Shown: positions 7,388-47,899 of the stretch, piece by piece | Layout: each line of letters begins with the position of its first letter | Numbering within the stretch: the first letter of the stretch is position 1 | Source: a virus | Reading direction: 5' to 3' (one strand) | Length of the DNA stretch: 64,000 nt | IMG/VR virus record: IMGVR_UViG_3300035034_002228 | Location: 1 to 64,000 of that record | The notes under the pieces: model-generated | What the model was told of the DNA's origin: nothing | Seen by the model: the letters and a program-made list of their open reading frames with translations, nothing else | The model's database searches: none | Position numbers and translations under genes: made by a program

Positions 7388-7480
7388 AACTCTATCCTCG
7401 TTTAAGGCAATAAGCGTCAATCTTATGATCTCAAACCATTGATCAGCCTACCAGCCCAAACGCCACGTAAAGGAGAGGTT

Positions 7481-9127
7481 ATGGCTACTGTAAACACAAC
7501 CGGTCTGTATGAATTTGATCCATACGGCACCAATCCTGATAATAAAATACCGGGTGAACTGCAGTCACTGCAAGTCCCCGGTCGGGACGACTACTATTTC
7601 ATCATCCCAAAAGCGGCCCCGTTCTTTGTCGACGGTTTTGAAATTGTGGACCACGACACTGGTCGTCCATACCTTGAAGGGCGTGATTTCCTGTTCGGGC
7701 ATTATTTCCCAGAAGGGTCGGACGCAACGGGTAAGGCCCTGGCCGGGTCGTTGCGATTCCTGAGTCGCGACATCACCGGCATCGTCCGAATGACATACCA
7801 GACCATCGGTGGCCATTGGGGTTTTGACGATCAAGCTGTGTTGGAGGAATTGTCCAACAAGGCAATCAACCCACTGACGCGAGCGTGGAGTCAGATTGAC
7901 ACATTGCCTGCGTTGTTCCCACCAATACCGCACGACCAAGGTACGGGAGAACTCATTGGGTTTGAAGAAGTGGTTGAGGCCATTGGGGACATTGAACGGG
8001 CATTGGGTGACACCGAAGCTGGAACCGTAACCGACCACATGAACAGTCGGGAAAACCCACACAACGTCACCAAGACGCAGATTGGGTTGGAGTTTGTGCA
8101 GAACTACCCCATGGCTAACCTAGCGGAAGCGGCGGACGGTCTTCGGAGCGATCGGTATATGTCGCCAAAGACGACCGATGCGGCGGTTGTGTCGGCGGTT
8201 GATCGTGAGATTGAAAAACACCTGAATGTCGATAATCCCCACGGCACGAATAAAGCCGATGTCGGTTTGCCCCTGGTTCGGAACTTTGGGATCGCCACCG
8301 AATCCACCGCCTACAACGCGACACGTAACGACCAATACATGACACCGTACTTGGTTGGCGTTGTGCTTCAGGCTTTGAAAAGTGAAGTTCTCGACCCGCA
8401 TTTTAACGATACCAACAACCCGCACAACCTGACCGCAGCCGATATTGGTGCGATCAACATGGAAACCATTACCGCCCTGTTGGAAAACTATCTGTTAACA
8501 AACGGCACCGCTTACGACACCGCCCGGACGTTTGGGATGAACCTGGAAGGACTTAAGCAGGAAATCTTGCTGGGCACTGCCGCGAATTCCGAAATGCTGG
8601 AAGGACAAACTTACGGGGAAATCAAAGACGACCTGTACACGCAGTTTGTGTACTTCACCACCTACACGTGGGAATACACCACCGGCGATTACTTGGGTCG
8701 TCAGGAACACCTCCCGTTTTACACCATGACGGAAACCACAGAACCGCTGGTATTGATCGGGAACGTACTGGGCACCGAAGGACGCCGGGCGTTGGTGAAC
8801 ATTGAAGTGGACTGGACCACCGAGGCGGTGAACATCACCACCCTCAACGGGATTCCCCCACTGAAAGATTTTGCCATGCGGGTTATCGGGACTGGGGCCG
8901 ATAAGGCCATTGAGTTGTCCTTGGATGTTCACGAAGTGCCCGTTACCCCAATCACGTTCATCCCCGTTCATCAACCCGACGGTCAATTCCTGCCCGATCC
9001 ATCTAGCGTTGGTCCAAACCATGGGAACGGACGTACGGCGGTTCCGGCAGTTGGTGCCGGTGCACAAGACGTCACCGATACATTGATCGAGTCCTTTAAT
9101 GCGGCGTCCGATCAACTGGAAGCTTAA
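7481..9127 (+). CDS. Tail fibre/baseplate-attached structural protein with NPHNVTK repeats
   Basis: A 548-residue protein with an N-terminal domain (FDPYGTNPDNKIPGEL onwards) that is paralogous to the start of the next gene (TGKRPDNYIPGERHDL). It is followed by three copies of a shaft repeat that begins NPHNVTK, NPHGTNK or NPHNLTA and continues QIGLxxVxNY and a YMSPKT or YMTP motif. Such repeats are common in tail-fibre shafts. The C-terminal 200 residues look globular and beta-rich. ATG 7481 was chosen because AAAGGAG lies nine bases upstream; the in-frame start at 7439 has none. It forms an operon with 9141-10070. Confidence 0.78.
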   Translation: MATVNTTGLYEFDPYGTNPDNKIPGELQSLQVPGRDDYYFIIPKAAPFFVDGFEIVDHDTGRPYLEGRDFLFGHYFPEGSDATGKALAGSLRFLSRDITGIVRMTYQTIGGHWGFDDQAVLEELSNKAINPLTRAWSQIDTLPALFPPIPHDQGTGELIGFEEVVEAIGDIERALGDTEAGTVTDHMNSRENPHNVTKTQIGLEFVQNYPMANLAEAADGLRSDRYMSPKTTDAAVVSAVDREIEKHLNVDNPHGTNKADVGLPLVRNFGIATESTAYNATRNDQYMTPYLVGVVLQALKSEVLDPHFNDTNNPHNLTAADIGAINMETITALLENYLLTNGTAYDTARTFGMNLEGLKQEILLGTAANSEMLEGQTYGEIKDDLYTQFVYFTTYTWEYTTGDYLGRQEHLPFYTMTETTEPLVLIGNVLGTEGRRALVNIEVDWTTEAVNITTLNGIPPLKDFAMRVIGTGADKAIELSLDVHEVPVTPITFIPVHQPDGQFLPDPSSVGPNHGNGRTAVPAVGAGAQDVTDTLIESFNAASDQLEA

Positions 9128-9140
9128 CCGGAGGTTTTAA

Positions 9141-10070
9141 ATGTCAGTCATTGTCAATAAGTACCCATTGGATCTGACGGGTAAACGTCCGGACAACTAT
9201 ATTCCGGGCGAGCGTCACGATCTGGATGCGGCAGTCACCACGGGTAATTACCGTGTGTTCGTGCCAAACTACGGTGGATTCTACACGCAGGACATGGTTG
9301 TCCGCGATGTGTCGGGTACCCCGTTGCGTAAAGGGGAGGATTACATCGCCACATACCTCTATGAACGACCGACCCTGAGGAGCGGTCTGGAAGTGTGTGG
9401 TGCGGTTGTTATTGTTAACCCCAACGTGTCCACCACAGTGTTCATGGACTACCAAGTGGTGGGGGGCGACTTCGCGGTTTCCACCGACGCCCTGCAGCAA
9501 GTGCTCAACACTTTGGCCGAAGAAGATCGGCCGGTTGAATGGGCCAACATCATTGGAAAACCGAACGAGTACCCCGCCGCTGGACACCTACACGCTCTGT
9601 GGGAACTGTACGGATTCGAACCGGTTGTCACCGAACTGGAACGGATTACCCAAGCGATCATGGCAGGCGATCAAGCCCTGCATGATGAAACCCGTGCGTA
9701 CGCTCTTACGCTGTTTGAAGAAGCCGGTGAAGCGCGGGACGCGCTGGAACGTCGCTTGGTTGACCACATGGAAGACGGGACCAATCCCCACGACGTGACG
9801 AAAGCACAAGTTGGGTTAGGTGACGTTGAGAATTACAAGATGGCCACCGATGTCCAAGCGGCCGCCATGGACGTCAAAACGCGTTACATGTCACCCCATG
9901 CGGTGGGCGTGGCCCTAGCCACACACGCCAATCCGAACGTGAATCACCACGACGGTCGGTACGTGAGAATCAGTACCACCGAAGAGACAAGCTTGCGGGT
10001 AAACAACAATCGACTTCAAGCCTATGTTAATGGCGGTTGGAAAACGATTTGGCCGGCACAGTGGGTGTAA
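9141..10070 (+). CDS. Tail fibre/baseplate structural protein, paralogue of the preceding gene
   Basis: A 309-residue protein with the same N-terminal attachment-like domain as its neighbour (PDNYIPGE, then YxxFVPNYGGFY, EDY and MDYQVVGG). It has a central helical segment and one complete shaft repeat (NPHDVTKAQVGLGDVENY, then RYMSPHAV). The short C-terminus HHDGRYVRIST resembles a fibre tail. GGAGG precedes the ATG and the gap to the upstream gene is 13 bp. The stop codon is inside the loop of a strong terminator hairpin. A shorter companion or adaptor of the larger fibre is a reasonable inference. Confidence 0.75.
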   Translation: MSVIVNKYPLDLTGKRPDNYIPGERHDLDAAVTTGNYRVFVPNYGGFYTQDMVVRDVSGTPLRKGEDYIATYLYERPTLRSGLEVCGAVVIVNPNVSTTVFMDYQVVGGDFAVSTDALQQVLNTLAEEDRPVEWANIIGKPNEYPAAGHLHALWELYGFEPVVTELERITQAIMAGDQALHDETRAYALTLFEEAGEARDALERRLVDHMEDGTNPHDVTKAQVGLGDVENYKMATDVQAAAMDVKTRYMSPHAVGVALATHANPNVNHHDGRYVRISTTEETSLRVNNNRLQAYVNGGWKTIWPAQWV

Positions 10071-10148: not shown

Positions 10149-11285
10149 ATGCGTGAATTGATGGTCTACCTGAAAACTACCGAAACCTGTCAGTTAAACT
10201 GTCAGCACTGTTTCACCAGTGGTACTAACGGTAAGAAAGGATGGTTTGATCCCGAAGCCACCGTTGACTTCTTTAAACGATTGAAGCAGCAGTTTCCAAC
10301 GTATCGTTCCGCCAACATCTCGTTCCATGGGGGCGAGCCGATGCTCTGTCCCTTGGAGAAAATGGAATACGTGTTCGACGAGCTTGACGGTTTGTGGGAC
10401 AACTTGAGTTGGGGGATTCAAACCAACCTTACCTACAAGCTGACCGACGAACGTTTGGCGTTCCTCAAGAAAGTTTCCGGCACGTCCATCGGCACGTCAT
10501 GGGACTACAGCATCCGGTGGCAAGGCAACCGGAATCAAGAAGCTCTGTGGGAAGAAAACGTCCGTCGCCTGGTGGCAGAAGGCATCGACGTTACGGTCAT
10601 GATTTGCGTATCCAAAGACTTGATGGAAGTGGAACCCATTGACGTCATCAACAAGATGATTGATTTAGGGGTAAACTTCATCAACTTCGAACGGATCACT
10701 GAAAACGGAAACGCCCGTGAGAACACCGGTATTTTCCCCACCAACTTGGAACTCGATGCGTGGTTCCTTAAAATGTGGGAACAAACACTGGAACATAAAG
10801 CGTACGAACGAATTCTGAATATGTTCGTTGAGAGTCTACTGACCAGTACCGTCTTTAATACGTTCTCTGGATGCCGCAGTCGTGAGTGCGAGCAGAAGAT
10901 CCTCACGTTGAACGCGGACGGGACCATCGGTGGTTGTCCCAATGGCGCCCCGGAAACAACCTTCGGACGTCTGGATCAAACCATAAACGAAATCGTATTT
11001 TCCGAAGGTCGTGGTTGTAACATCGCCAATGAAAGTACCTTGAACGAGGTGTGTTACACGTGTGATGTGTTTGATGTGTGTAACGGCGACTGTCACCAAC
11101 TTAACTGGCATGGGGATATCTGTGCTTCACCCAAATCCATGATGCGGGCAATGAAAAACACCAGCCAGGAGCAACTGCGGGAAGTACTTAATGGATTCAT
11201 GGGCGACGAAGGCATTCGGTACGAGAAAGAACCGTCGGCACTGACCATCGACCCAAACACCATCCCGATTGTGGAGGTTACCTGA
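10149..11285 (+). CDS. Radical SAM/SPASM-type peptide or protein maturase (rSAM 1)
   Basis: Radical SAM enzymes use a 4Fe-4S cluster to cleave S-adenosylmethionine and start radical chemistry. The CxxxCxxC motif is at Cys14, Cys18 and Cys21, followed by the SAM-binding HGGEPML. The C-terminal third carries many Cys residues (SGCRSREC, GGCPNGA, CYTCDVFDVCNGDCH, DICASP) in the arrangement of a SPASM domain, which binds extra clusters and is typical of enzymes acting on peptides. At 378 residues the length is normal for the class. It begins one base after the promoter-led leader (ATG 10149) and ends 1 bp before the likely substrate gene, with which it must be translated together. The exact reaction cannot be told from sequence. 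Confidence 0.9.
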   Translation: MRELMVYLKTTETCQLNCQHCFTSGTNGKKGWFDPEATVDFFKRLKQQFPTYRSANISFHGGEPMLCPLEKMEYVFDELDGLWDNLSWGIQTNLTYKLTDERLAFLKKVSGTSIGTSWDYSIRWQGNRNQEALWEENVRRLVAEGIDVTVMICVSKDLMEVEPIDVINKMIDLGVNFINFERITENGNARENTGIFPTNLELDAWFLKMWEQTLEHKAYERILNMFVESLLTSTVFNTFSGCRSRECEQKILTLNADGTIGGCPNGAPETTFGRLDQTINEIVFSEGRGCNIANESTLNEVCYTCDVFDVCNGDCHQLNWHGDICASPKSMMRAMKNTSQEQLREVLNGFMGDEGIRYEKEPSALTIDPNTIPIVEVT

Positions 11286-11286
11286 C

Positions 11287-11829
11287 ATGGCGGATTTAAA
11301 ACGAAGTGATTTTCACGCAGCCGTAAATTCTAATATTAACCAGTATGCCAAGGATCAGGCTCGATGGTGGAAGGGTAACGGCAGAAGCGGAAGTTATATG
11401 AACAACGGACCCCTGGTGTATTTGTCCCATTTCGATCGTGGGACTTCGGCAGCGACCGGGGATGCCGATGCCAGTAACGTGGTGGCTGTTATTAAAGCCG
11501 AAGCCGAACGTTGTACCTCCATGCGGAAAGTGTATACAGCCCGTTATTATTCGGGAAGTTATTACGGAAATGGGGACCGGCGTAAAGTCCGGGGCATTGC
11601 GGCCTTGAACTCCAACTACAGCCAGTCCATTTACAGTTTGAAAACGGCAGGTGGGCACCCCAACTACGTGTCCACAAATAACAACGCCGATTGGTCGAAT
11701 TTGAGTGACCTAATCCAATCCGTTCAAGACGATCTGTACGACAAAATCCACAAAAGCGGTGTTGTGGATTTGTCGGTTTGTCATTCAAAGTGTCATGGTA
11801 ACTGCCATTCCTCAAGGAATAGACGATGA
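11287..11829 (+). CDS. Candidate radical SAM substrate with C-terminal CHxx repeats
   Basis: A 180-residue protein: a polar N-terminal part rich in Ser, Asn, Gly and Tyr, then a helical segment and the C-terminal sequence CHSKCHGNCHSSRNRR. The three CH pairs (Cys165-His166, Cys169-His170, Cys173-His174) are spaced exactly four residues apart and followed by an Arg-rich end. It starts at ATG 11287, nine bases after GGAGG, which itself sits inside the end of the rSAM 1 gene. Tight coupling to a SPASM-type maturase and a short repeated Cys/His tail are what RiPP-type precursors look like, although 180 residues is long for one. It could instead be a metal-binding partner protein. The substrate role is inference. 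Confidence 0.7.
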   Translation: MADLKRSDFHAAVNSNINQYAKDQARWWKGNGRSGSYMNNGPLVYLSHFDRGTSAATGDADASNVVAVIKAEAERCTSMRKVYTARYYSGSYYGNGDRRKVRGIAALNSNYSQSIYSLKTAGGHPNYVSTNNNADWSNLSDLIQSVQDDLYDKIHKSGVVDLSVCHSKCHGNCHSSRNRR

Positions 11830-12896
11830 TACGATTACTGAAAAATCTGACGCTGGATTACAGCTTTTCAAGTCCCAGTGGAATGGCTGACCCTAAGGAC
11901 CTCGTGTATATCAATTACCTGGGGTCTAAAACGTTCTCTGCCGACTCAGAACCTTTAATGAAATACCCCAAGTTAGACGTTCTGTTGGATGCGCCGGGCG
12001 GGCTCAATGATTTTTTAGAAACGGTAGTCCTCAGTGGTCGCTCCGTTACTGCGTTTGTGGACGAGATCGATTTAAATCGTTTCTACGTGCATTTCCTCAG
12101 AGGGGTGTTTCCAAACATCACACTTGAGAACACACATCGTTTATTGCGACTCACGGTAGTGGATCAGAAACACAGCCAAACAAACCGGTCGACAAAAGTG
12201 GCGGTAAATCGGGAGGGCAAGCTTGGTCTTACCTTACCGACCCCAATGCAGACTCGAATTTGGTTTGAAGGAGCAGCCAAACAGAACGAGTTCTCAGACA
12301 CGGTGAAAGAAAACGTCTCCATTGAATATTTGATGTTAAATGCATTGGCCGTCAACTACGATCCACACGACCCATTCGTGGTGTATTTCCGTGAGCGACT
12401 GGATGACCTGTTATGGGACATGCTGACGGCGGATTACACAAAACGACGTCGGAAGTTACTGTTGGGTATCTTTAAGTTAAAAGAAAACTTAGATATCGAC
12501 ATCGACCCGTTTGCCGACGACCTGGAGTCTCAAATCGCAGAGCTGGACGCAAAGCTCGGGCTGGACGGTTCTATTAACGAGAAGACAGCCGCCAATGCAC
12601 AACGAATTCACAACACGATCGTGTCGATCAACAAAAAGAACGGCATTGTTGAGGATTTTAAAGAGCTTATTGCACGCTTCTTTTTAAACGACCATGGCAT
12701 CACGCATGACGAGTTTGTTGAACTGATCAAAACCGACCGGCGTCAACCATGGAGTGCTTTATTCGGGCGCAATAAAATGCTGCGTGGTACTGGTTCGCTA
12801 ATATTCAGTTATCTACACAGTGCTACAGCTGATAAACTCTCTGACATGCGTCTGACAAACACAGAGGAAAGTGATCATGCTTCACTTAATAGATGA
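11826..12896 (+). CDS. Unknown protein, tandem paralogue 1 of 3
   Basis: A 356-residue protein that I cannot assign. It overlaps the stop of the upstream candidate substrate by ATGA and the start of the next paralogue by 20 bases, so translation is coupled. Shared features with the next two genes are an N-terminal LLxxLxxDYSF, a VxxFLRxVFPxI-type helix before HRLLRL, a conserved central SIEYLMLNALAVNYDPHDPF, and a C-terminal WSALFGRNKM then YL. There is no signal peptide, membrane segment or metal motif. Its position between a radical SAM enzyme and its probable substrate on one side and further radical SAM genes on the other suggests a role in the same pathway, for example as scaffold or substrate. 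Confidence 0.75.
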   Translation: MIRLLKNLTLDYSFSSPSGMADPKDLVYINYLGSKTFSADSEPLMKYPKLDVLLDAPGGLNDFLETVVLSGRSVTAFVDEIDLNRFYVHFLRGVFPNITLENTHRLLRLTVVDQKHSQTNRSTKVAVNREGKLGLTLPTPMQTRIWFEGAAKQNEFSDTVKENVSIEYLMLNALAVNYDPHDPFVVYFRERLDDLLWDMLTADYTKRRRKLLLGIFKLKENLDIDIDPFADDLESQIAELDAKLGLDGSINEKTAANAQRIHNTIVSINKKNGIVEDFKELIARFFLNDHGITHDEFVELIKTDRRQPWSALFGRNKMLRGTGSLIFSYLHSATADKLSDMRLTNTEESDHASLNR

Positions 12897-13917
12897 CATC
12901 CGAGCGGACTTTTCATTCACGTCCATCGGACTCAAAAAACCAACCGATACGTTCGTTTATTTAGACGATCGAACGCACACCTCAGGGGATCACCATTTTG
13001 AGGGTGTGATGGAGTTTGATGGGTTGAAAGACGCAATGGATCAATTTGGGGATTTACCTACCTTGATTGAGACAGTGTTGTTGCTGGAAGGGGACGTCTG
13101 GTTAATGCTAGACCCTGACGACATGTACCAGCTGGTTGTAACACACTACCGTTCGATCTACCCGGAGTTGCCAATCGATGTGGTTCATGCGGTTCTGAGG
13201 ACGTTTTACATCCACCACCGTTTTGTGCGTGTTAAAGGGTTTGCTTACGACCATTACTCAGAGCAACTCCCCCTGCCGACCTGGGAAGACACGGAACGGC
13301 TCTACGCGAACTCCAGACATGGGAATGGGTACAGCAACGAACTCAAGAAACATTTGAGCTATGAGGTCTTGCTGGCACACGCCCTGAGTGTGGACTTCGA
13401 CAACGACGACCCGTTCGTCACTCAGTTCGCCAAAAACATCGAACGGATGTTGTGGATTTCCTGTGCCCGCGATTTTGTGAAACGGCGGATGACTGCATTC
13501 GACAACGGCTTTCAACTTAAACAGACGTTGGATCTCCCGCTCAATTTTGACCGTAACGACATTGAACGTCAGTTAGAGGTTCCGGTGGTGAAACGGTTCT
13601 TCAACCCCGACGTCACCTACAAAGATGTTGAGGCGATCAAAGCCGATTACGACTACGTCAGAAAAATGATAGCGAAGGTGGACGCACTGGTGGGTTACGG
13701 TGACGCGTACAACCCATCGCTTTTTGATTTCCTAGACCCAGGTCGTTCCTTTACCGGGTCGGTGGTAAAAGGGTTGGTTGAACTCGATCAGGAATCGTTG
13801 TGGTCCTTTATGTTTGGCCGGGAAAAACTGACCAAAGACACAAACGGGGTGTTTGTTAACTACCTTTACACTTTGGATCGAGAACAACTGACCCACTTTA
13901 CATTGAATGGTGCGTAA
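12877..13917 (+). CDS. Unknown protein, tandem paralogue 2 of 3
   Basis: A 346-residue paralogue of its neighbours: MLHLIDDIRADFSF at the start, HYRSIYPELPIDVVHAVLR, LSYEVLLAHALSVDFDNDDP in the middle, and WSFMFGREKL followed by NYLY at the end. GTG 12871 and ATG 12877 are both possible; GAGG nine bases upstream favours the ATG. It overlaps the previous gene by 20 bases and is followed by the third copy after two bases. The copies have diverged widely, so the duplication is old and each copy is probably kept for its own purpose. No function is recognisable. Confidence 0.75.
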   Translation: MLHLIDDIRADFSFTSIGLKKPTDTFVYLDDRTHTSGDHHFEGVMEFDGLKDAMDQFGDLPTLIETVLLLEGDVWLMLDPDDMYQLVVTHYRSIYPELPIDVVHAVLRTFYIHHRFVRVKGFAYDHYSEQLPLPTWEDTERLYANSRHGNGYSNELKKHLSYEVLLAHALSVDFDNDDPFVTQFAKNIERMLWISCARDFVKRRMTAFDNGFQLKQTLDLPLNFDRNDIERQLEVPVVKRFFNPDVTYKDVEAIKADYDYVRKMIAKVDALVGYGDAYNPSLFDFLDPGRSFTGSVVKGLVELDQESLWSFMFGREKLTKDTNGVFVNYLYTLDREQLTHFTLNGA

Positions 13918-13919
13918 AC

Positions 13920-14954
13920 ATGTTGCATTTGCTGGACAAGGTCTACGTTGATTACGACTTTACTGGAAACATTGGTCGCAACAACCTAATCTACGTAGGT
14001 CCCATGGGTATGTTGAAACACACCCACGGTCCGAAACCGCTTTATCAGTTTCCTTCATTGAATACCATCGTTCGGGAATTTGGTGATATACCAACGTTTA
14101 TCGAATGTTTGACACCCCTCGGACAGAAGACCATTATTTTAATGGACGAAGGTTCGATGAACCAATTGCTGGTAACGTGGCTTCGTTCGGTCTTCCCTAA
14201 GATAACCGCCAAAATGGTGCACCGTTTTTTAAAGTTAAACGCAGTGAACCATAAGTACGAACACGGAAGTCGCACCAGTACCAAAGGTTCTCGGAAAGAC
14301 GGGTTTCGAAACCTCACGATTCCCACGTTGGACGATGTTGAGGGAATGTGGAACGATCTGAAAGCGGTTCCCTTGTCCATGGAGCTCAAAGAACGGGTGA
14401 GTTTTGAGTACTTACTGGCACACGTGCTTCTGATGGACTTCCACCCGACCGATCGGTTTGTGAAAGCATTCGTTCAGCGCATGGAGACCATCCTTTGGAA
14501 GTCGGTCGCTTGGGATTTTGTTGGTGTTCGGCGGGACTTACTGTACGGCATGTATAATCTGAAAGAGAACTTTGGTTTGGGTGTGGACTTAGAACAAGAC
14601 GACATCGATGACCAAATTGAAGCCCTTGAGGACACGGTGTTGTTTAACCCAGACAACCATCCTGGGAATGTGGAGTTCATCAAAGACAACCATGCGGCCA
14701 TCCGTGAAATGGTCGAAAAGGTCCATGCAATGAATGGCACGACTGACCCTTTCTTGAATCAGTTGTTGCGGATTTTGCCCAACGGGGTGTTCACTGAAGT
14801 TAAAGCCAAAGAACTGATCGACGAAGACCGGCGGGCGCATTGCAGTCAGATCTTTGGTCGAACGGAGTTTCGGGACAACATGAACAATAACTTCATTGGG
14901 TATCTGTACCGTGCCTCCTGGTCCGAACTCGAAAAAATGAATCTTAACGAATGA
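13920..14954 (+). CDS. Unknown protein, tandem paralogue 3 of 3
   Basis: A 344-residue third copy: MLHLLDKVYVDYDF at the N-terminus, WLRSVFPKITAKMVHRFLK, the conserved VSFEYLLAHVLLMDFHPTD block, and CSQIFGRTEF then FIGYLY at the end. It begins two bases after the stop of copy 2, so it is certainly in the same operon. Like the others it is soluble and largely alpha-helical by composition, with a basic middle region (SRTSTKGSRK). I cannot assign a function. Confidence 0.75.
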   Translation: MLHLLDKVYVDYDFTGNIGRNNLIYVGPMGMLKHTHGPKPLYQFPSLNTIVREFGDIPTFIECLTPLGQKTIILMDEGSMNQLLVTWLRSVFPKITAKMVHRFLKLNAVNHKYEHGSRTSTKGSRKDGFRNLTIPTLDDVEGMWNDLKAVPLSMELKERVSFEYLLAHVLLMDFHPTDRFVKAFVQRMETILWKSVAWDFVGVRRDLLYGMYNLKENFGLGVDLEQDDIDDQIEALEDTVLFNPDNHPGNVEFIKDNHAAIREMVEKVHAMNGTTDPFLNQLLRILPNGVFTEVKAKELIDEDRRAHCSQIFGRTEFRDNMNNNFIGYLYRASWSELEKMNLNE

Positions 14955-14963
14955 GGTAATCAC

Positions 14964-15656
14964 ATGATCACAGTACCCCTGCCCATGAAAGAACTGCACG
15001 AGGTCATCAGTGACAACAGCAAAGTCTATGATGTCGATTACAGCAACTCCAAGATCAAAGGGAAGCCGTTCGTTTTCTATCTGGCCAACCTGAACGTGAA
15101 GACACGGATTAATGTCGAGACACTGACCAAAGAAGAACTCAAAGAGCTTCTGGTGATATACATGACGATCAACACACCGTTCAAGTGTGAAGAACTCAAC
15201 GTCTTGGTCATGTTGACGTTACTGCACTTCATGGAGGGCGATACGTCGGGAATAACCACTTTTGATTTACCCGACGGGTTCTTGGACGAATTCGTTGAGG
15301 AGAACCAAGATCTCATGGCTCGGTATTTCCTCTTTTGTTCTTCAATGATCAAATACTGCGACTACATTCGAAGTATCTCGGATGACAAAGAGCCCGACCT
15401 TCGCGGTTACGATGGGACCATTGACGACCCGAAATACATTGGGGTGAATGTGGTGTGGCTTTTTGAGATCCCTTCGTTCTTCGAGCTGTTCTTTTCGGCG
15501 CGGGACCCTCAGGACTACCCACAAGTGTACTTCCCGGTTCAGTTTGAAGAGTACATGTTCAATGGTAAGAACTTGTTTTACTTCTTCGTGGGTGATAAAG
15601 AAAACCCCAACTGGTTGCTTCTGAACAAAACCGCACTGGAGAAATTACATGACTGA
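14964..15656 (+). CDS. Unknown acidic protein in the radical SAM operon
   Basis: A 230-residue acidic, aromatic-rich protein with no recognisable family. It has a helical middle part (LTKEELKELLVIYMTINTPF) and a Phe/Tyr-rich end (FFELFFSARDPQDY, NGKNLFYFFVGD). GAGG precedes the ATG at 14964. It overlaps the next radical SAM gene by eight bases, which suggests the two products are made in similar amounts and may act together, for example as substrate or partner protein. There is no Cys-rich tail and no membrane segment. Confidence 0.7.
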   Translation: MITVPLPMKELHEVISDNSKVYDVDYSNSKIKGKPFVFYLANLNVKTRINVETLTKEELKELLVIYMTINTPFKCEELNVLVMLTLLHFMEGDTSGITTFDLPDGFLDEFVEENQDLMARYFLFCSSMIKYCDYIRSISDDKEPDLRGYDGTIDDPKYIGVNVVWLFEIPSFFELFFSARDPQDYPQVYFPVQFEEYMFNGKNLFYFFVGDKENPNWLLLNKTALEKLHD

Positions 15657-16653
15657 GAACATGGAAAATCTGATCCCACTGGTGGAGCTAGTGGAAGCGA
15701 AGCGGGGACCGAATAAAGAATTTTTTATCAACTTCTTTGAACGGTGCAACTTGCAATGTGGTTTTTGTTGGCAGGACCATGACGACTGGACAGGGGTTGA
15801 CCAAATCGTTGAAAAAGCCGAGTTGGTGATCAATAACACAAATGACCACGACTTCTACAGTGTGAATGTCATGGGTGGGGAGTTGTTCATGGACGAACTC
15901 CCCGATAGTGTGTTTGACGATTACTTAGAATTCTGCCGTCGGGTTGTGGTGTCGGTGAAACACTGCGAGATAAACTTTGTCACAAACCTGGTGTTCGAGA
16001 AAACCGAACGTGTTGTTCGGTTTGTGAAAACGTTGGAAGAAGCACTGATACCTTTTACGTTTTGCACGTCGTACGATGTGTCGGGCCGTTTTAACACAAA
16101 AACGTTTGCCACGTTTGAACGAAACCTCGCGGTTTTCAAACCATGGCTTTCCAACATCTCAGTGGTGTTGACGCGCCCCAACATCGAACGGTTCATGCGT
16201 CGTCCCGATGTGGCGCTGGATCGCCTGTACAAGGAATACCCGATTTTCTTTGATTACTATTCCCCCGAAGACAACGTCGAGGTACTTCAACCAACGGATG
16301 TGGAGCTGGTCGACTTTTACCTATGGTTAAACGAAAACTACCCGGAGAGTCAACCGATCAAAGCCTTTCGGGAGAACCAGCACAACCCAGCAACGTGTCG
16401 GAGTTCGTTCATCATCCTACCAACCGGGATGACCGGCTCGTGTAGAGTGTTGGCGGACCGCGACCAGTTTAAATCGGACCCAACTGTTGTGGATAACATC
16501 CATGAGTCGGAAGCACGGTTCATTCAGGAACGGGAGTGTTTGAGTTGTGAGTTCTACCAGAAATGCGGGTTGGGATGCTTTCTTCACAGCGACCATGTGA
16601 ACATCACCAATAAACACTGCGAGTTCAAACGACTATATGGAGAACTCGCGTGA
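15649..16653 (+). CDS. Radical SAM protein with Cys-rich C-terminus (rSAM 2)
   Basis: A 334-residue radical SAM enzyme. The cluster motif CNLQCGFC is at Cys33, Cys37 and Cys40 and is followed by the SAM-contacting VMGGELF. The end of the protein has a SPASM-like set of cysteines (TCRSSFIILPTGMTGSCR, ECLSCEFYQKCGLGCF, then HC), consistent with an auxiliary cluster. It overlaps its upstream neighbour by eight bases and the next radical SAM gene by GTGA. Two radical SAM genes translated in tandem suggest sequential steps or a heteromeric pair. Substrate unknown. Confidence 0.88.
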   Translation: MTENMENLIPLVELVEAKRGPNKEFFINFFERCNLQCGFCWQDHDDWTGVDQIVEKAELVINNTNDHDFYSVNVMGGELFMDELPDSVFDDYLEFCRRVVVSVKHCEINFVTNLVFEKTERVVRFVKTLEEALIPFTFCTSYDVSGRFNTKTFATFERNLAVFKPWLSNISVVLTRPNIERFMRRPDVALDRLYKEYPIFFDYYSPEDNVEVLQPTDVELVDFYLWLNENYPESQPIKAFRENQHNPATCRSSFIILPTGMTGSCRVLADRDQFKSDPTVVDNIHESEARFIQERECLSCEFYQKCGLGCFLHSDHVNITNKHCEFKRLYGELA

Positions 16654-17633
16654 GCATTGAAAAATTCAATTCATTTGAGTTGCAGTTAGAAATACTGGCT
16701 GGGTGCGCGTTTAACTGCGTCGGGTGTCACGTCGATCGGGAGTCCCCAAACAAAGCGACCGATAAGATGTATCGGGTAGCCTACGAGTTCTTAGAACAAG
16801 TCGACCCCTACGCTGTTGTGATAGGGAGTACCGACATCTTCACCGCCACCAATACCCTGGAAGTCTTAAACGACATCCGGTTGACCGAACTGATAAAACG
16901 GTTTGACCGACTGGTGGTTAACTCCACCATGGTGAAGCCGAACACGGCTGTACTGGACGCCATTACACGCTTGGGTATGAAGGAAGTTCAAGTGAACATC
17001 GTGATTCCCGAATCGAAGAACTTAAACGAGCGGTACAACACTGTGGTGTCCGAAAAGGTCCGGGAAGTAAAGGAGCGCTTTCCAGATTTGATCCTACATC
17101 CGCAATTGAACCTGAGCGGTTCATTGACCGTTGACAACTACGAAGAGTTGAACGATTTCTACATACGTCACTACGGACAAGGTGTGGATTTCAATCTGTC
17201 GTTTGCTCGCACCAGTTCGGACCCGAATAAGTATCGGGCGGCGTTTGATTGGCTGAAAAAGGTTACGGCAACCACCAGTGCCACCGTTGATGGATGTATG
17301 GATGGCCAACACGTGGATGTGGTCAGTCCCCACGACAAGCTGGAACGGGTGATCATTTTCTACGAAAACGAATTCTACGCCATCCCCATCGTTTACGAAG
17401 ATCTTATTCAAATTCGCGAACGTTATCGGATATCTGGACTCGATGAATACCGTAAGAAATACGATACGGTGGTTTTAGAGCAGTATGCCTACACGGTAAA
17501 AACCGATGAGTGCGGTGAGTGTCCATTTCTACCGACATGTCTTGACCATCGTGTTTTGGCGGTTATGGAAGATTACGACATCACCAGCTGTATACTCCCC
17601 AAGGAAACCATTGCCAGAGTCAACCAGTGGTGA
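16650..17633 (+). CDS. Radical SAM protein, divergent (rSAM 3)
   Basis: A 327-residue protein starting at GTG 16650, overlapping the previous stop. The cluster motif CAFNCVGC is at Cys19, Cys23 and Cys26, but the usual GGE motif is missing: the equivalent place reads VIGSTDIF. The C-terminus has CGECPFLPTC and a final CILP, enough for one auxiliary cluster. It may therefore be an unusual or regulatory partner of rSAM 2 rather than a standard maturase. It is the last gene of the first radical SAM operon; a terminator follows 9 bp after the stop. Confidence 0.82.
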   Translation: MSIEKFNSFELQLEILAGCAFNCVGCHVDRESPNKATDKMYRVAYEFLEQVDPYAVVIGSTDIFTATNTLEVLNDIRLTELIKRFDRLVVNSTMVKPNTAVLDAITRLGMKEVQVNIVIPESKNLNERYNTVVSEKVREVKERFPDLILHPQLNLSGSLTVDNYEELNDFYIRHYGQGVDFNLSFARTSSDPNKYRAAFDWLKKVTATTSATVDGCMDGQHVDVVSPHDKLERVIIFYENEFYAIPIVYEDLIQIRERYRISGLDEYRKKYDTVVLEQYAYTVKTDECGECPFLPTCLDHRVLAVMEDYDITSCILPKETIARVNQW

Positions 17634-17641
17634 CGGAATAA

Positions 17642-17676
17642 AACACCCACGGTGCAAGTCCGTGGGTGTTATGTCG
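17642..17676 (+). terminator. Terminator ending the first radical SAM operon
   Basis: An 11-bp perfect stem (17642-17652 with 17660-17670) has a seven-base loop. The downstream side reads TTATGTCGAC, the conserved terminator tail seen across the window; the upstream side does not carry it. Confidence 0.85.
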
Positions 17677-17710
17677 ACTTCTATTTGTTTTCAACGCATG
17701 CGGCCAACTA

Positions 17711-17716
17711 TATAGT
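17711..17716 (+). promoter_or_regulatory. Candidate -10 element TATAGT before the second radical SAM operon
   Basis: TATAGT lies 28 bases upstream of ATG 17744, just after a terminator. It is identical to the element before the first radical SAM operon. No clear -35 box is seen. Confidence 0.4.
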
Positions 17717-17743
17717 CTTTTATTCACAGGTCGGAGACCCGTA

Positions 17744-18784
17744 ATGGATTTGATCATTAAACCAACCGAACTCTGTAACTTCGCCTGCACGTTTTGCAGT
17801 TCTACCAGCATTACCGACAACAAAACCGATGTATTAAACCTAGACTACATTGCCCGTTTTCTAGACCGGTTCCCGGAAACTAACACCATCATTGTCAATG
17901 GCGGCGACCCATTGATGCTCAAGCCGGATTATTACTGGGACATCCTTAAGCTATTGGAAGAACGGAACATGACGGAAACCATCGTTGGTTTTACCACCAA
18001 CCTCTGGGATTTCTACAAGCGCCCTGACAAATGGACCGAACTATTCCGTCATCCCCAGTTCTCTGTGTGCACCTCCTTCAACTACGGCGACAGTCGACGT
18101 ATCAGTAAGAATCGTGTTTTCACCGAAGCCGATTTCTTGGCCATCAGCGACTTGTTTCTTGAACGTGTGGGTTACCGGCCAGACTTTATTTCCGTCATTG
18201 ACGAAGACAATCGCGATACCGCCATTGACAATGTCCGATTGGCTAAACGTCTTGGGGTGGAATGCAAACTGAATTTGGCCATGGTCAGTGGTCGCCAAAA
18301 AGAACCGTTCTTGATCTCCGACGTACACGAACTTTACCTTGAGATCTACGACGAGGGGCTCATGCCGTGGGAGTACAACACCAAACAGATGGTGAACGCC
18401 CTTAATAGTTACCACACCACTTGCCCAATCAGCCGTGACTGTGACACCGGTATCCGTAATATTCACCCCAATGGCGAGTACTACAGTTGCGGTTCCTTTG
18501 GGGACGATCGGAAGTTCCCCATCGATTTCAATAAAGAGATGGAAAGTGACACCATCGCCACGCCCTTGTCCAAAGAGATCACCATGCGGTCCATGCATGA
18601 CGGCTGTTTTGGGTGTGAGTTGTTTGCTCTGTGTAACGGCTGTCGAAAAACCATCCGTGACACGCAACAAGCAGGGCTGGTTGAAAAACATTGCACCACA
18701 ATGACCGCACTCAAACCAAGACTGTTGGAAGCGGCGGAGAAAGAACCATACGCGGTGGGAGGACTGAGTGATAGTATCGATTAA
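17744..18784 (+). CDS. Radical SAM/SPASM-type protein (rSAM 4)
   Basis: A 346-residue enzyme with CNFACTFC at Cys11, Cys15 and Cys18, immediately after a short first strand, then VNGGDPLML in place of GGE. SPASM-like cysteines are seen in NGEYYSCGSFGDD and CFGCELFALCNGC with a later HC. I start at ATG 17744 because GGAG is seven bases upstream and the cluster motif is then at the usual distance from the N-terminus; the longer frame from 17666 would run through the terminator and promoter. It overlaps the next radical SAM gene by 17 bases. Confidence 0.9.
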   Translation: MDLIIKPTELCNFACTFCSSTSITDNKTDVLNLDYIARFLDRFPETNTIIVNGGDPLMLKPDYYWDILKLLEERNMTETIVGFTTNLWDFYKRPDKWTELFRHPQFSVCTSFNYGDSRRISKNRVFTEADFLAISDLFLERVGYRPDFISVIDEDNRDTAIDNVRLAKRLGVECKLNLAMVSGRQKEPFLISDVHELYLEIYDEGLMPWEYNTKQMVNALNSYHTTCPISRDCDTGIRNIHPNGEYYSCGSFGDDRKFPIDFNKEMESDTIATPLSKEITMRSMHDGCFGCELFALCNGCRKTIRDTQQAGLVEKHCTTMTALKPRLLEAAEKEPYAVGGLSDSID

Positions 18785-19667
18785 CCCGTTGTACCGGTGT
18801 AACTTCCGGTGCAGTAACTGTTACCTAACTGAGGAACAGCTTCGGTCACGCGCTTTGTTGGACTTAGAGCAGTTAGACCGACGCTTGGCGGACATACCCG
18901 AGATTGACGCGGTTGAACTTTATGGAGGCGAAGTCACTTTATTAGACGAGAGCTATGTTAACGACCTTAAAGGTGTGGTACGTCGGTATTACGACGGTCC
19001 GATCTCCGTGACCACCAATAGTTACCAGATGCCGGAATGGATTTATCACGACGACATCGACGTCAACGTCTCTTACGATTTCAATCATCGACCACACCAC
19101 GAACAGGTGTTCACGAATCTGTTGGTTTTCTCCAGGCCGGTGAACGTTATTGTGTTGGCCACGCCAGAAGTAATGGCCGACGATGTAGACCAACAGATCG
19201 AACTAATACGCTCTCTGGTGAATTTGAACTCGGTTGAAATCAAACCTTACAGTCCAAACCAAGCCAACGATCGCGGGAACCGTAACCAAGACTACGTAGA
19301 GTACGTCAAACGCTGGATACGCGGTTTCCCTAATAATCGCTTGCGTAACAGCGCCTTGTTGAATGAGGTGGCTGACGGGGTCCGTAATGCCTTCTCCGAC
19401 GACCACGTGTACATCACGCCCGAAGGAAAGTTCGGGGTGTTGGAATTCGACGAATTCGACCGCGAATACTTTCTCCAGTTGCCGGATTTTAAAGCCTACC
19501 AGCAATGGACCAAGAACGAAAAACACAAATTGCTATCAGAAATATGTCGGGCGTGTGAGTTTAAAGGTAGGTGTTTGACCGAACATTATCGACGGAAGGA
19601 AGGTCTGGATGGGGAATGTAGTGGGTACAAATCGCTCATCGAGTGGTGGTTGGGTCGAGCGGCTTAA
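18768..19667 (+). CDS. Radical SAM protein (rSAM 5)
   Basis: A 299-residue protein, the shortest of the five, starting at GTG 18768 five bases after GGGAGG. The cluster motif CNFRCSNC is at Cys11, Cys15 and Cys18, and YGGEVTLLD supplies the GGE. Near the end CRACEFKGRC and a final Cys form a minimal auxiliary-cluster site. It overlaps rSAM 4 by 17 bases and the next gene by 59, so the three are translationally linked. Substrate and reaction are unknown. Confidence 0.88.
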   Translation: MIVSINPLYRCNFRCSNCYLTEEQLRSRALLDLEQLDRRLADIPEIDAVELYGGEVTLLDESYVNDLKGVVRRYYDGPISVTTNSYQMPEWIYHDDIDVNVSYDFNHRPHHEQVFTNLLVFSRPVNVIVLATPEVMADDVDQQIELIRSLVNLNSVEIKPYSPNQANDRGNRNQDYVEYVKRWIRGFPNNRLRNSALLNEVADGVRNAFSDDHVYITPEGKFGVLEFDEFDREYFLQLPDFKAYQQWTKNEKHKLLSEICRACEFKGRCLTEHYRRKEGLDGECSGYKSLIEWWLGRAA

Positions 19668-20031
19668 ACGCTTTCATCTCAACGGTGTTAAAACAGACTA
19701 CTTTGGGGGACACTACAACCCATGTGTCATAGTCAGCGCGGTAAAAATGATCAATGGCGACTGTGAGGCCCTTGAATTCCCCGCCAAGAGTTATTTGGTG
19801 GGGATCTGCTACGCCGACTACATCGCGCGGTATTTCAACGTGGATTTTTACGAGGTACTTTCCCACCCAACGTTGTTGCACGACGATGAGCATTTCGTTC
19901 CATATAACGAGGCGACAGCCCCGGTTTATGAGACGCTACTCCCAATGGTGTTGTCAAACGACTTCCGCACTACGGAGTTGTACGGTGTCATCATCGGGTA
20001 CTGTGAAGAAGAACTGGGACTGACTGAATGA
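19609..20031 (+). CDS. Unknown small protein coupled to rSAM 5
   Basis: A 140-residue protein in a different frame over the last 59 bases of rSAM 5. A very good SD (GGAAGGAAGG, 19594-19603) supports ATG 19609 and the long overlap. It has no recognised domain; the sequence is mixed alpha/beta with DYFGGHYNPC near residue 30 and an acidic C-terminus. It lies directly before the oxygenase-like gene (eight-base gap), so it belongs to the second radical SAM operon. A helper or substrate role is possible but unproven. Confidence 0.65.
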   Translation: MGNVVGTNRSSSGGWVERLKRFHLNGVKTDYFGGHYNPCVIVSAVKMINGDCEALEFPAKSYLVGICYADYIARYFNVDFYEVLSHPTLLHDDEHFVPYNEATAPVYETLLPMVLSNDFRTTELYGVIIGYCEEELGLTE

Positions 20032-20219: not shown

Positions 20220-20609
20220 ATGCCGTTGTTCTACCAACACTTGGAAAGGCGTTACCAATTCAAACCGGAAGGGGTGTCGGTGGCCAATTGGATCTTCGGT
20301 GGGAACGACGGCAGTGGCCTGGAACCCCACATCCATTCGGGTTCGCATTTTACGGCTGTTTTTTACCCAATGGTCGTCGGTGGTAGTATTGTCATGGTGG
20401 ACCCGCGATACAGTGCACAACGTGGATATCCTCGGGATTTCATCGACGGTCATTTTGGGAAGAAGAAGATCAACCCAACCGCCGGTCAATTGGTAATCAT
20501 GCCCAGTTTCCTTGAGCATTACGTCACCGGCTTTAAACAGGGACTGCGTTTGTCATTTGTAAACGACATCATTTTACGCACCGACGACGGTGATGTCCAT
20601 TTCGATTGA
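20220..20609 (+). CDS. 2-oxoglutarate/Fe(II) oxygenase-like catalytic part (TIGR02466-like)
   Basis: A 129-residue C-terminal core of a cupin-fold oxygenase. The signature is EPHIHSGSHFTAVFY, then VMVDPRYSAQRG, then the strand GQLVIMPSFLEHYV and LRLSFVND. In relatives of this family the first His motif and the late HxV His bind iron and an Arg near the end binds 2-oxoglutarate; a clear carboxylate ligand is not obvious here. Such enzymes hydroxylate proteins or small molecules. Its frame continues from the entry ending at 20180 through the in-frame TGA. GAAGAG lies six bases before ATG 20220, so independent initiation is possible. It lies at the end of the radical SAM region and 5 kb before collagen-like fibres. 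Confidence 0.7.
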   Translation: MPLFYQHLERRYQFKPEGVSVANWIFGGNDGSGLEPHIHSGSHFTAVFYPMVVGGSIVMVDPRYSAQRGYPRDFIDGHFGKKKINPTAGQLVIMPSFLEHYVTGFKQGLRLSFVNDIILRTDDGDVHFD

Positions 20610-44371: not shown

Positions 44372-45331
44372 TTACCGGTTGTAGTGGAAGTAAAGGTTAC
44401 CAACGCCCCACGGACAGTCGGGTGGACATTCCAGAATGATCACGTAATTATAGAACTCCGCGTTGGCTTCTGGGTAGTTGCCGTTTGGCAGCGATGTGTG
44501 AACGATGCCGAAGCCACTGAAATTGAACGGCGTGGTGCGATAGTCGTCAGCGTCGTTCCATGTCATGGTTGGAGTAACTCCCAACACCTCTTCGAACACA
44601 TGAGCGACGTCCTGTAAGAACCGATCATGAAATTCGTCGTCCCAGTTGTAGCCGATGTGATACCGACGGGTTTGCTGCCAGTCGTATGTATTGTTGAAAT
44701 ATTCCAGTGAGAAGTCCCGATCGTAGGTTACCGGTGTTAGGTACACCTTACGCTGTTCCGGGTCGGTGAAATCACTACCGCCAGGATAGTAGATACCCAC
44801 GGTTTCGTCTTCGGTAACGACGTCTTCCAATCCACGACGCCCAGACATCCAGTTGTACGCAACGCTTCCAACGTAAATGTAAGAATCAGTGAAGGCCCGC
44901 ATGGTGTACAGTCGACCTTCATTGGCACCGTAGTAAGCGGTCATGTTCAGGTTCTGGATCTGTGTCTCATCCAACAGCAACCCGTACTGTTTAGAAAACA
45001 GTGGGAGAATATCGTAGAGAGTCGCAATTACTTGCCCGTTGTCGCCGGTGCCGTCGCTGCCTGGGAACCATTTCTGAATCCGAGGTGTGATGCCCCAGAA
45101 CAGACGACCCAGGTCCAATCTGCGGTACGTCAGTACGATGTTGCCAAAGTACGGCGCCGTTGGGTGGGCGAACAATCGGATTTCGCTGTTGTGTCCCTCA
45201 GGGGTTTCAGTAATCGCAACCGGGTCCATGAACTCGTAATCGGTAGCGTTAATCGGGAACGGCAACTGCGGGTTTGCTTCGTTGATCAAATCAACAAGCA
45301 TTTGCTTGGGTGTTTTATCGTAGAAAAACAT
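44372..45331 (-). CDS. D1/D2 protein
   Basis: A 319-residue protein. D1: KQMLVDLINEANPQLPF, YFGNIVLTYRRLDLGRLF, QYGLLLDETQIQNL and FTDSYIYVGSVAYN. D2: TYDRDFSLEYFNNTYDW, then NYPEANAEFYNYVIILECPP and the ending LYFHYN. Its first helix closely resembles that of the 41603 protein, so these two copies are probably nearest relatives. AAGGAC precedes the ATG. Confidence 0.75.
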   Translation of the reverse strand: MFFYDKTPKQMLVDLINEANPQLPFPINATDYEFMDPVAITETPEGHNSEIRLFAHPTAPYFGNIVLTYRRLDLGRLFWGITPRIQKWFPGSDGTGDNGQVIATLYDILPLFSKQYGLLLDETQIQNLNMTAYYGANEGRLYTMRAFTDSYIYVGSVAYNWMSGRRGLEDVVTEDETVGIYYPGGSDFTDPEQRKVYLTPVTYDRDFSLEYFNNTYDWQQTRRYHIGYNWDDEFHDRFLQDVAHVFEEVLGVTPTMTWNDADDYRTTPFNFSGFGIVHTSLPNGNYPEANAEFYNYVIILECPPDCPWGVGNLYFHYNR

Positions 45332-45352
45332 GAGATGTCCTTCGAAATTGGG

Positions 45353-46171
45353 TTACCAGTTAACGTCGTAATGGAAGTACAGTGGGCCTTTCACAGAACC
45401 CAAGGGCGTGCTTTGCACCAGAACGCGTTCAAAGGTGGGATTCGCCCCCGCCACTTGATCGGTCGGCAGATCCACCACGGTGGAGTTGTACCAGTACGAC
45501 AAGCGAGCCGCTTCTTGGCCCACCGTTTGCACGTCGGCGAAGTTATGCCACTGACCGCTCTCAGGATCGATCTGAAGGCGGTCTTTCCACGCAGTGAAGT
45601 CAACCCCCCAGGTCTGCATTCGACCCGACAGACGGCCGTTGAGAAACTCTATGTCGTCCGGGTGTTCCAACATGGGAAGCAGCTGAACCAACACCGAGCT
45701 GGCTAACAGCGGATTCCCATACGTGGTGGTGATCGTGACGGTACCCACCCACCGGTACGAGTTGTCGATCACTCGCAATTCCACCGGATGGATGGTTTCC
45801 AATGGAGCACCCTCAAACGCGCTCAAATCGGGTGTATCCAGGTCCCGCAATTCCAACTTCAACCCGTACTTGTGGTTGACCTTCGCCAGAAGCTTGTCCA
45901 CCGTGAGGTCGTTTTCCCGAATGTTGGGGTTCATGCCTTCAAACAGACTGACCAGATCCCCACGCTTGTAGTAGACGTCGGTCTGACCGTCGTAGCCTTT
46001 GTAGGGAATCCCCTGAAGGGTAACGGCGGTGTTACGAGGCCCTTGGTCGGCGACGGAAAACGGCATCAAGACGCGGGGGTACTTGAAGACCACGTTGTCC
46101 TGTGTGATGACCCGAGGCAGGTCGTTTTGGGTATTGACCAAGTCAATGAGTTCGTCCAAACCGTTGATCAT
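45353..46171 (-). CDS. D1/D2 protein
   Basis: A 272-residue protein. D1: LDELIDLVNTQNDLPRVI, GYDGQTDVYYKRGDLVSLF, KYGLKLELRDLDTPD and RVIDNSYRWVGTVTIT. D2: TWGVDFTAWKDRLQID, DQVAGANPTFERVLVQS, ending LYFHYD. GGAGG precedes the ATG. The phrase TWGVDFT is almost repeated in the 47045 gene (TWGLDFT), marking these as a close pair. Confidence 0.75.
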   Translation of the reverse strand: MINGLDELIDLVNTQNDLPRVITQDNVVFKYPRVLMPFSVADQGPRNTAVTLQGIPYKGYDGQTDVYYKRGDLVSLFEGMNPNIRENDLTVDKLLAKVNHKYGLKLELRDLDTPDLSAFEGAPLETIHPVELRVIDNSYRWVGTVTITTTYGNPLLASSVLVQLLPMLEHPDDIEFLNGRLSGRMQTWGVDFTAWKDRLQIDPESGQWHNFADVQTVGQEAARLSYWYNSTVVDLPTDQVAGANPTFERVLVQSTPLGSVKGPLYFHYDVNW

Positions 46172-46183
46172 GGAATACCTCCG

Positions 46184-47035
46184 TTAGTAGCCCAGCGTGG
46201 CATGGGGGTCTGGACCGTGGTGAATCACCAAGTCGCCGTCCAGTGCCAAACATTGCGTTGGGTCAAGCCGTACGACGATCACCATGGGGTAGTCGTCGTT
46301 GGTGTTCGGGTAATCGGAAGTTGATCCGGAGAAGACGATCTGCGCATCCTTCAACGAATAATCCGAGGGACCGGAACCCAGCCAAGGATCGCCCGTGACG
46401 TCGTCCAGAACGGTCACCAACTCCAAACCAATGGGGTCACCTGTTTGAATGGTCTTCAGCGTTTCATGGTGATCGGTGAAGTCCTGCCAGAAACTGTAGA
46501 AATGGGCGAACACCCGATCCGTGGACTCGGTGGGGTAGTTCAAACCACCCAACGTGGTGGTCAGAACGTGTTCCTCCAACACCAAGTCGCCTTCGGTGGC
46601 GTTGATGTCCAACTGCCCAATCCACCCCAAGCTACCCGGTGTGGCTTCCAGCGTCACCGTTTTGTACGTGGTGTTGTCCACCACTGGGTGATCCACCAGA
46701 TCGCTGGGCGCGAAGTTCAACCCGTACCGTCGATTCAGTGAATCGATCACGTCATGGGTGGTGTTCAAGGTGGGTGCTTGAACGTAGATGTCCGCCAGCA
46801 CGTCCAGATCGGCAATGTCCAGTCGGTTGTAATAAATGTCCACCGACCCCACGTACGGGGCGGCTGGGTTATTGGCCGTCAGGGTGATCTTGGAGTTGTA
46901 ACTGGCCGTTGACCCTTCCGGCGGTGACGCCGGTAAGGGGTTTTCAAAGTCGTAGTCGCTTGGGTCGAGCTGGATGTTGTTTTCCGCTTCCACCAAACTC
47001 AATAGCGTTGACCGTGGGTCTTTATACAGAGACAT
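46184..47035 (-). CDS. D1/D2 protein
   Basis: A 283-residue protein. D1: STLLSLVEAENNIQLDPSDY, YVGSVDIYYNRLDIADLDVL, YGLNFAPSDLVDHPV and LEATPGSLGWIGQLDIN. D2: HFYSFWQDFTDHHETL, DYPMVIVVRLDP, ending DLVIHHG. It shows the family consensus of D1 most clearly. GAGG precedes the ATG. Confidence 0.75.
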   Translation of the reverse strand: MSLYKDPRSTLLSLVEAENNIQLDPSDYDFENPLPASPPEGSTASYNSKITLTANNPAAPYVGSVDIYYNRLDIADLDVLADIYVQAPTLNTTHDVIDSLNRRYGLNFAPSDLVDHPVVDNTTYKTVTLEATPGSLGWIGQLDINATEGDLVLEEHVLTTTLGGLNYPTESTDRVFAHFYSFWQDFTDHHETLKTIQTGDPIGLELVTVLDDVTGDPWLGSGPSDYSLKDAQIVFSGSTSDYPNTNDDYPMVIVVRLDPTQCLALDGDLVIHHGPDPHATLGY

Positions 47036-47044
47036 GTGGACCTC

Positions 47045-47881: not shown

Positions 47882-47899
47882 AATGAGAATCCCGGATTA

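Follow-up and report, generated by a model that had tools for sequence, protein, structure and literature searches.

A viral DNA stretch of 64,000 nucleotides (IMG/VR record IMGVR_UViG_3300035034_002228, positions 1 to 64,000; hereafter the window) carries a gene whose 180-residue product ends in three Cys-His repeats and an arginine-rich terminus. This short tail is conserved at the protein level among phage and bacterial homologs, and its gene, which usually lies behind tail-fibre genes, is obligately linked to genes for a putative peptide-modifying radical S-adenosylmethionine (SAM) enzyme, here termed enzyme A, and for a partner protein, X1, a linkage of the kind expected of substrates in the biosynthesis of ribosomally synthesized and post-translationally modified peptides (RiPPs). 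We consider it likely that the phage encodes a multi-enzyme post-translational modification system and that the 180-residue protein, probably one for host recognition, serves as its substrate. The virus record to which the window belongs is 81.8 kb long. Matches to phiKZ-type phage families for the major head protein, an internal head protein and RNA polymerase suggest that the window probably derives from a jumbo phage related to phiKZ.

The tail and its linkage to radical-SAM genes

The tail gene and its immediate surroundings comprise the following features:

10149..11285, + strand: radical-SAM/SPASM enzyme A, obligate partner of the tail protein (PF04055 3.1e-8, above cut-off; invariant motifs)
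11273..11277, + strand: Shine-Dalgarno GGAGG of the tail gene, within the end of gene A (from the sequence)
11287..11829, + strand: CH-tail protein, 180 aa, proposed substrate (translation; 184 distinct homologous tails)
11779..11826, + strand: C-terminal tail CHSKCHGNCHSSRNRR, proposed modified segment (C, H, R-4, R-2 and R-1 invariant; 81% versus 25% identity)

The product of the open reading frame (ORF) ends in VCHSKCHGNCHSSRNRR, followed by the stop codon, and thus carries the three CH pairs at a spacing of four that an initial annotation of this DNA had placed at the C-terminus. The annotation also had the gene directly following that of a SPASM-type enzyme, and gene A is indeed canonical, its stop codon (11283-11285) being separated from the tail gene ATG at 11287 by a gap of 1 nt. 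Translational coupling of the two genes, claimed in the same annotation, is plausible, because the Shine-Dalgarno sequence, 9 nt before the ATG, lies inside gene A. The downstream gene, encoding the first of three paralogs of a family termed X2, begins at 11826 and overlaps the tail gene stop (ATGA).

A first pattern scan of IMG/VR demanded just three CHxx units plus RxR and listed at least 119 stretches, about 101 of which are real. Without exception, these have the tail at the very C-terminus and end it with RxRR-stop, even though the pattern asked for neither the last Arg nor the stop. That pattern imposed C, H, R-4 and R-2, which the enzyme-based and body-based searches described below did not. 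Over all searches, 184 distinct proteins share the consensus (CHxS)3-R-G-R-R, always at the C-terminus: the three Cys, three His and three Arg are invariant, Ser occupies position +3 of each repeat in 79-92% and Gly precedes RR in 91%, the x positions vary among relatives while C, H and R stay fixed, and the number of repeats is three in 182 of the 184. Both Cys codons and both His codons of the tail are in about equal use, and mean pairwise identity is 0.81 for the tail versus 0.25 for the rest of the protein, here called the body; from this mixed codon use and the difference in identity, selection acts on the tail at the protein level. A chance repeat is ruled out by 184 distinct tails with mixed codons, invariant C, H and R and a constant C-terminal position. 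Among candidates that we discarded, three of 19 genome-scan matches (loci L131, L132 and L138) are not genuine tail genes, that in L132 being a spurious 29-aa ORF, and low-complexity CH repeats in viral DNA (e.g. L057 and L062) fit the pattern and are not C-terminal RxRR tails. A variant with four CH repeats, CHSNCHSNCHSNCHTNRSRR, is found at L039:8105-8878 beside at least six radical-SAM genes.

The linkage of tail gene and enzyme gene holds in both search directions, and this gives strong genomic support to the view that enzyme A and the tail protein form an enzyme-substrate pair. A profile of enzyme A (alignment A1; 367 candidates confirmed) found 80 IMG/VR loci among the matches listed; 73 of these carry a CH-tail ORF, directly adjacent in 67, and in the remaining seven the contig ends inside or just before the tail gene. 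Profiles of the body alone (A8 and A9), built without the last 26 residues, returned 90 loci, 87 of them with the tail and three cut by a contig end, and all 90 with at least one cassette radical-SAM gene. No true tail-less or enzyme-less relative appeared among the 90 body-only loci and the 80 listed enzyme-A loci. The initial annotation had proposed a modification substrate, a claim that this two-way linkage (87/90 and 73/80 loci) supports at the level of gene content. Homologs that keep the body and lack both tail and radical-SAM neighbor, which would have spoken against the proposal, were sought among the 90 loci and none was found, and proteins ending in CHxx repeats, which it suggested seeking beside radical-SAM genes, number 184 distinct ones over all searches, with enzyme A next to the tail gene in nearly all loci. 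Its picture of a single neighboring enzyme captured enzyme A and missed the others, as the window has five radical-SAM enzymes. Among 135 tail-pattern loci, a cassette radical-SAM gene is present within the DNA covered in 127; most of the other eight are short or cut stretches, and one is the spurious ORF of L132. The sole unexplained exception, from a metagenome bin, is L137:156 (reverse orientation), in which the tail reads CHSSCHGSCHGSRTRR and the 5 kb downstream are without a cassette radical-SAM match.

These loci also bear on a reading in which the tail is left unmodified: the CH repeats of an oligomeric fibre protein would bind iron or zinc at its tip, and the radical-SAM enzymes would act elsewhere. 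HxH repeats coordinate metal in the T4 gp37 needle, and a Cys-His pair every four residues, the C-terminal position and the fibre neighborhood would all suit such a role. We nonetheless regard it as quite improbable, since no homolog without a cassette radical-SAM gene exists in the 90 body-only loci and enzyme A is nearly always encoded by the adjacent gene.

The cassette is distributed over phiKZ-like, giant Agrobacterium/Sinorhizobium, marine T4-like and rhodobacterial phages. A tblastn search and annotated records place relatives in Burkholderia phages FLC6, FLC8 and SURPRISE13, Agrobacterium phage Atu_ph07, Sinorhizobium phage Phosso and Pseudomonas phage DT01, with the tail protein directly behind a radical-SAM gene in five of five of these named phages inspected; a plasmid search gave no match to enzyme A. 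About 25 loci encode two different bodies with the same tail, and about 23 rhodobacterial-type loci have two tail proteins of ~130 aa behind a fibre-like gene. In L054, L083, L102 and about 20 similar loci, the two different ~130-aa CH-tail proteins are encoded in tandem and the fibre-like gene upstream ends IGIALxx..VEVKV; enzyme A lies about 5 kb downstream of the tandem tail genes in L054 and L083.

Enzyme A and its partners in the cassette

Enzyme A has the hallmarks of a peptide-modifying radical-SAM enzyme. The cysteines of its CX3CX2C cluster motif (C14, C18 and C21) and its HGGEP motif are invariant in 25 diverse relatives, as are all residues of the seven-Cys SPASM pattern CX9-15GX4C - CX2CX5CX3C - C, which appears as C247-X10-G258-X4-C263, C302-X2-C305-X5-C311-X3-C315 and C325. 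Its best NCBIfam matches are peptide-modifying families (sulfatase maturase, darobactin and others), all models scoring far below their cut-offs, and assignment to a named RiPP family was therefore rejected. The closest full-length solved structure is that of the sulfatase maturase anSME (PDB 4k36-4k39). In anSME, the SPASM Cys is followed by an Asp, D277, which we take to be catalytic; the equivalent position in enzyme A is Pro264, a Pro nearly invariant in relatives, and sulfatase-type chemistry is unlikely because a conserved Pro replaces this Asp.

The gene order in the window is A, tail protein, X2 (three copies), X1, B, C, D, E, X3 and a 2-oxoglutarate (2OG) oxygenase. Occurrence is given below for the 39 loci with full 9-kb flanks (full-flank loci):

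11826..12896, + strand: X2 paralog 1, unknown family (27/39 loci; alignment A4; no Pfam, no PDB)
12871..13917, + strand: X2 paralog 2 (likelier start, ATG 12877; X2 family)
13920..14954, + strand: X2 paralog 3 (X2 family)
14964..15656, + strand: X1, universal cassette partner (39/39 loci; phrog_20767; AlphaFold2 (AF2) pLDDT 89, no PDB match)
15649..16653, + strand: radical-SAM enzyme B (CNLQCGFC), Cys-rich C-terminus (phrog_1802 5e-32; 31/39 loci)
16650..17633, + strand: radical-SAM enzyme C (CAFNCVGC) (CX3CX2C; Pfam 1.1e-3, below cut-off; 12/39 loci, often multicopy)
17666..18784, + strand: radical-SAM enzyme D (CNFACTFCSST), start probably an internal ATG (PF04055 1e-10; 36/39 loci)
18768..19667, + strand: radical-SAM enzyme E (CNFRCSNC) (PF04055 8.2e-7; 17/39 loci)
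19609..20031, + strand: X3, small conserved cassette protein (hidden Markov model (HMM) family X3; 10/39 loci)
20220..20609, + strand: 2OG-Fe(II) oxygenase of the cassette (PF13759 1.6e-7)

In the same census, an oxygenase occurs in 17 loci and a cupin in 22, and the number of radical-SAM genes (HMM families A-E) within 19 kb ranges from two to seven per locus. X1 and X2 are conserved phage families, neither of which matches Pfam. The AF2 model of X1 is confident and has no PDB match by structure or sequence; X2 has a sole, meaningless PDB match (E=0.19). The cupin, encoded directly before A in most relatives, has the metal triad of Fe(II)/2OG oxygenases, an HxD...H motif (H90, D92 and H130) that does not vary among 34 sequences; a profile comparison gives a weak match to the histidyl-hydroxylase MINA (8e-5). 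In L162 (3381-6519) and L163, two tryptophan-halogenase-type genes in a row and several 2OG oxygenases lie just upstream of the cassette; the one halogenase gene of L162 that was scanned matches PF04820 at 7.5e-103. Two tandem dihydrofolate-reductase-like genes sit inside the cassette of Burkholderia phage FLC8 (L004:12917-14132), and a radical-SAM gene with a weak B12-binding domain match is found inside a predatory-bacterium cassette (L238:13572-15311). In the loci surveyed, the constant members of the cassette include no protease or exporter family.

The composition of the cassette speaks to another conceivable fate of the tail, covalent attachment of haem c, for which C-H-x-S-C-H offers a CX3CH-like spacing. 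We give this hardly any credence: periplasmic c-type attachment would require a signal peptide, and none is visible at the N-termini; the radical-SAM partner is obligate; and no haem lyase was seen in the cassettes.

The body and a proposed modified attachment tip

Upstream of the cassette lie genes for structural proteins of the virion:

7439..9127, + strand: tail/virion structural protein upstream of the cassette (phrog_13857 tail protein, E=1.6e-117)
9141..10070, + strand: second tail/virion structural protein, directly upstream of the cassette (phrog_2163 virion structural protein, E=4.3e-97)

In eight other loci, the cassette is preceded by a gene that matches tail-fibre families (seven loci) or a virion structural family (one locus); the tail protein is thus encoded where an adhesin of the tail-fibre tip would be, directly after a fibre gene. 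In L291 (3043-3969), L292, L293 and L295, the tail gene is split: one ORF joins the first ~50 residues of the body to a Gly_rich_2 domain, and another holds the remainder with the CH tail. Gly_rich_2-type domains occur in phage adhesins. An AF2 model of the body, built with 65 homologs, has the order helix, helix, beta hairpin, helix, with the tail uncertain, and all Foldseek matches of the body are to further phage proteins, among them the ones from DT01 and Atu_ph07. The body looks like a phage adsorption protein and not a peptide leader, and we infer a place for the tail protein in a structure that recognizes host or prey. Two pelagimyophages have been reported to differ by radical-SAM cassettes within a host-recognition cluster (PMC7029224). 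The initial annotation suggested that the N-terminal part may be a folded carrier; the homologs show instead a small, fast-diverging domain that is neither a conserved carrier nor a conserved leader.

Two bacterial contigs, from Bacteriovorax and Halobacteriovorax (219 and 382 kb), contain the same cassette, with no phage structural genes in its vicinity. Complete or near-complete cassettes occur in L237 (Bacteriovorax), L238 (Halobacteriovoraceae), L239 (bacterial) and L240 (Bdellovibrionaceae), and all four are apparently chromosomal. Prepilin-like genes adjoin the cassettes of L237 and L238, and the neighbors in L239 are, by sequence appearance, ABC-F and cbb3-oxidase genes.

Elsewhere in the window, virion structural proteins that resemble one another are encoded in an array over 44372-48487 (- strand), with matches to phrog_1037 for at least two, and ORFs that look related to it are present at other positions; a small macro-domain-like protein (phrog_335, phosphatase) is encoded among virion genes at 48559-49008 (- strand).

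We posit that enzyme A, together with X1, acts on the fixed C-terminal (CHxS)3RGRR tail: the A-X1 pair would recognize the body or the tail and start radical chemistry on the CHxS repeats, and radical-SAM enzymes B-E, Fe/2OG oxygenases and, occasionally, halogenases would then tailor the same tail. As a first guess, the chemistry would consist of Cys-based thioether or Cys-His cross-links, perhaps with hydroxylation of His or Arg, because each repeat has one Cys and most bodies (110 of 155) have no Cys outside the tail. The product would stay on the protein with the body not removed, because no protease or exporter is fixed in the cassette and one genome often has two bodies with the same tail. 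The body would sit at or near the tip of the tail fibre, within the host-recognition apparatus, and the finished tail would provide a tip with altered chemistry, possibly carrying cross-links or binding metal, for engagement of the host envelope.

Several observations weigh against this proposal. The protein differs markedly from the usual RiPP precursor, in which a conserved leader is recognized and then removed: here the conserved part is the C-terminal tail (81% identity versus 25% for the body), and no protease is fixed. No recognizable RiPP recognition element was found. AF2 models the body with only moderate confidence (mean pLDDT 72), and Foldseek finds no solved fold for it, with no PDB match by structure or sequence. 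Finally, two to seven radical-SAM genes per 19 kb exceed the apparent need of a 16-residue tail, and some of them may act elsewhere.

A near-constant tail, as in cofactor precursors, and the many tailoring enzymes would also fit a cleaved carrier, with the body serving as a scaffold from which the modified C-terminal 16-mer is released as a diffusible cofactor, toxin or signal. Pyrroloquinoline quinone, cut from PqqA, is the model for such a route. It is nonetheless unlikely here: neither a protease nor an exporter is fixed in the cassette, about 25 loci pair two different bodies with the same tail, the cassette is located in fibre regions, and the body is a structured domain in the AF2 model, needless for a disposable leader. 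Returning to a tail that is modified and retained, it is possible, as a more tentative extension, that phages and predatory bacteria share an undescribed class of modification in which (CHxS)3RGRR of a variable adhesion protein is converted into a radical-made structure at the attachment tip. The presence of the same cassette in phages and in Bacteriovorax-type predators, apparently on the chromosome of the latter, suggests a shared solution against Gram-negative envelopes.

Published interpretations and known systems

Published work has read genes of this kind differently. The DT01 paper explains its radical-SAM genes as DNA repair; 12 radical-SAM genes in one T4-like genome are labeled Fe-S metabolism (PMC5332604); 261 calls of ahbD, a haem synthesis gene, have been made in Baltic viruses (PMC9301287); and cassette genes are annotated also as Fe-S oxidoreductase or cupin. 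We found no open-access paper that names the tail or the tail-enzyme pairing, an absence that the open-access scope makes weak evidence. The ahbD-type metabolism genes of the Baltic viruses lend some color to the idea that the radical-SAM genes serve auxiliary metabolism, DNA repair or haem synthesis and that the tail gene is no more than a linked structural gene, which we hold to be very improbable given the obligate two-way linkage in unrelated phages and bacteria and a SPASM architecture typical of peptide-modifying enzymes.

Many phage radical-SAM genes can now be assigned a definite candidate substrate open to testing, a single constant tail of 16 residues. If a modified tail is indeed the product, the frequency of such genes in phage genomes and marine viromes, now booked as metabolism or repair, would be explained. 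Phages would then make chemically modified host-recognition proteins, a layer hidden from sequence-based host prediction, and the cassette would supply many enzyme variants for one short tag, an attractive resource for peptide cross-linking.

The closest likeness is to the SPASM RiPP maturases of sactipeptide, ranthipeptide and cyclophane pathways (PapB, DarE, FxsB and YhhB), with which the system shares a radical-SAM core with a SPASM domain and a small neighboring protein with short C-terminal repeats. Enzyme A scores 34-58 bits against cut-offs of 340-650 bits, and the cassette differs in that the presumed substrate, a phage protein, is folded and combines a conserved tail with a variable body, up to seven radical-SAM enzymes are present and neither a leader protease nor an exporter is a fixed component. 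The His-Xaa-Ser system (HxsA with HxsB/HxsC) also pairs H-x-S repeats (here CHxS) with more than one radical-SAM gene; enzyme A reaches 28 bits against the HxsB cut-off of 370 and the tail protein matches no HxsA model, whereas in our family a Cys is present in every repeat and the tail ends RGRR. Similarly, the CXXX-repeat system (TIGR04115) has period-four Cys repeats beside a radical-SAM gene, enzyme A scoring 27.7 bits against a cut-off of 350, in contrast to the CHxS repeats found here, three in nearly every protein. anSME (TIGR03942) shares its SPASM layout with enzyme A, which scores 65 bits against 349 and has Pro264 at the Asp position; neither a sulfatase nor a CxPxR motif is present. 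On the side of the substrate, the T-even gp38-type Gly-rich fibre-tip adhesins are likewise small proteins encoded directly after a fibre gene, and the fusion of part of a body with a Gly-rich domain in L291 adds to the likeness, whereas the main body has neither a glycine-rich domain nor a solved fold match, and the radical-SAM cassette and CH tail are particular to the present family. As judged from sequence, the system works like radical-SAM RiPP maturation, stands outside every named family tested and appears to invert the leader logic, the conserved element being the tail that is presumably modified and the variable one the body that would carry it.
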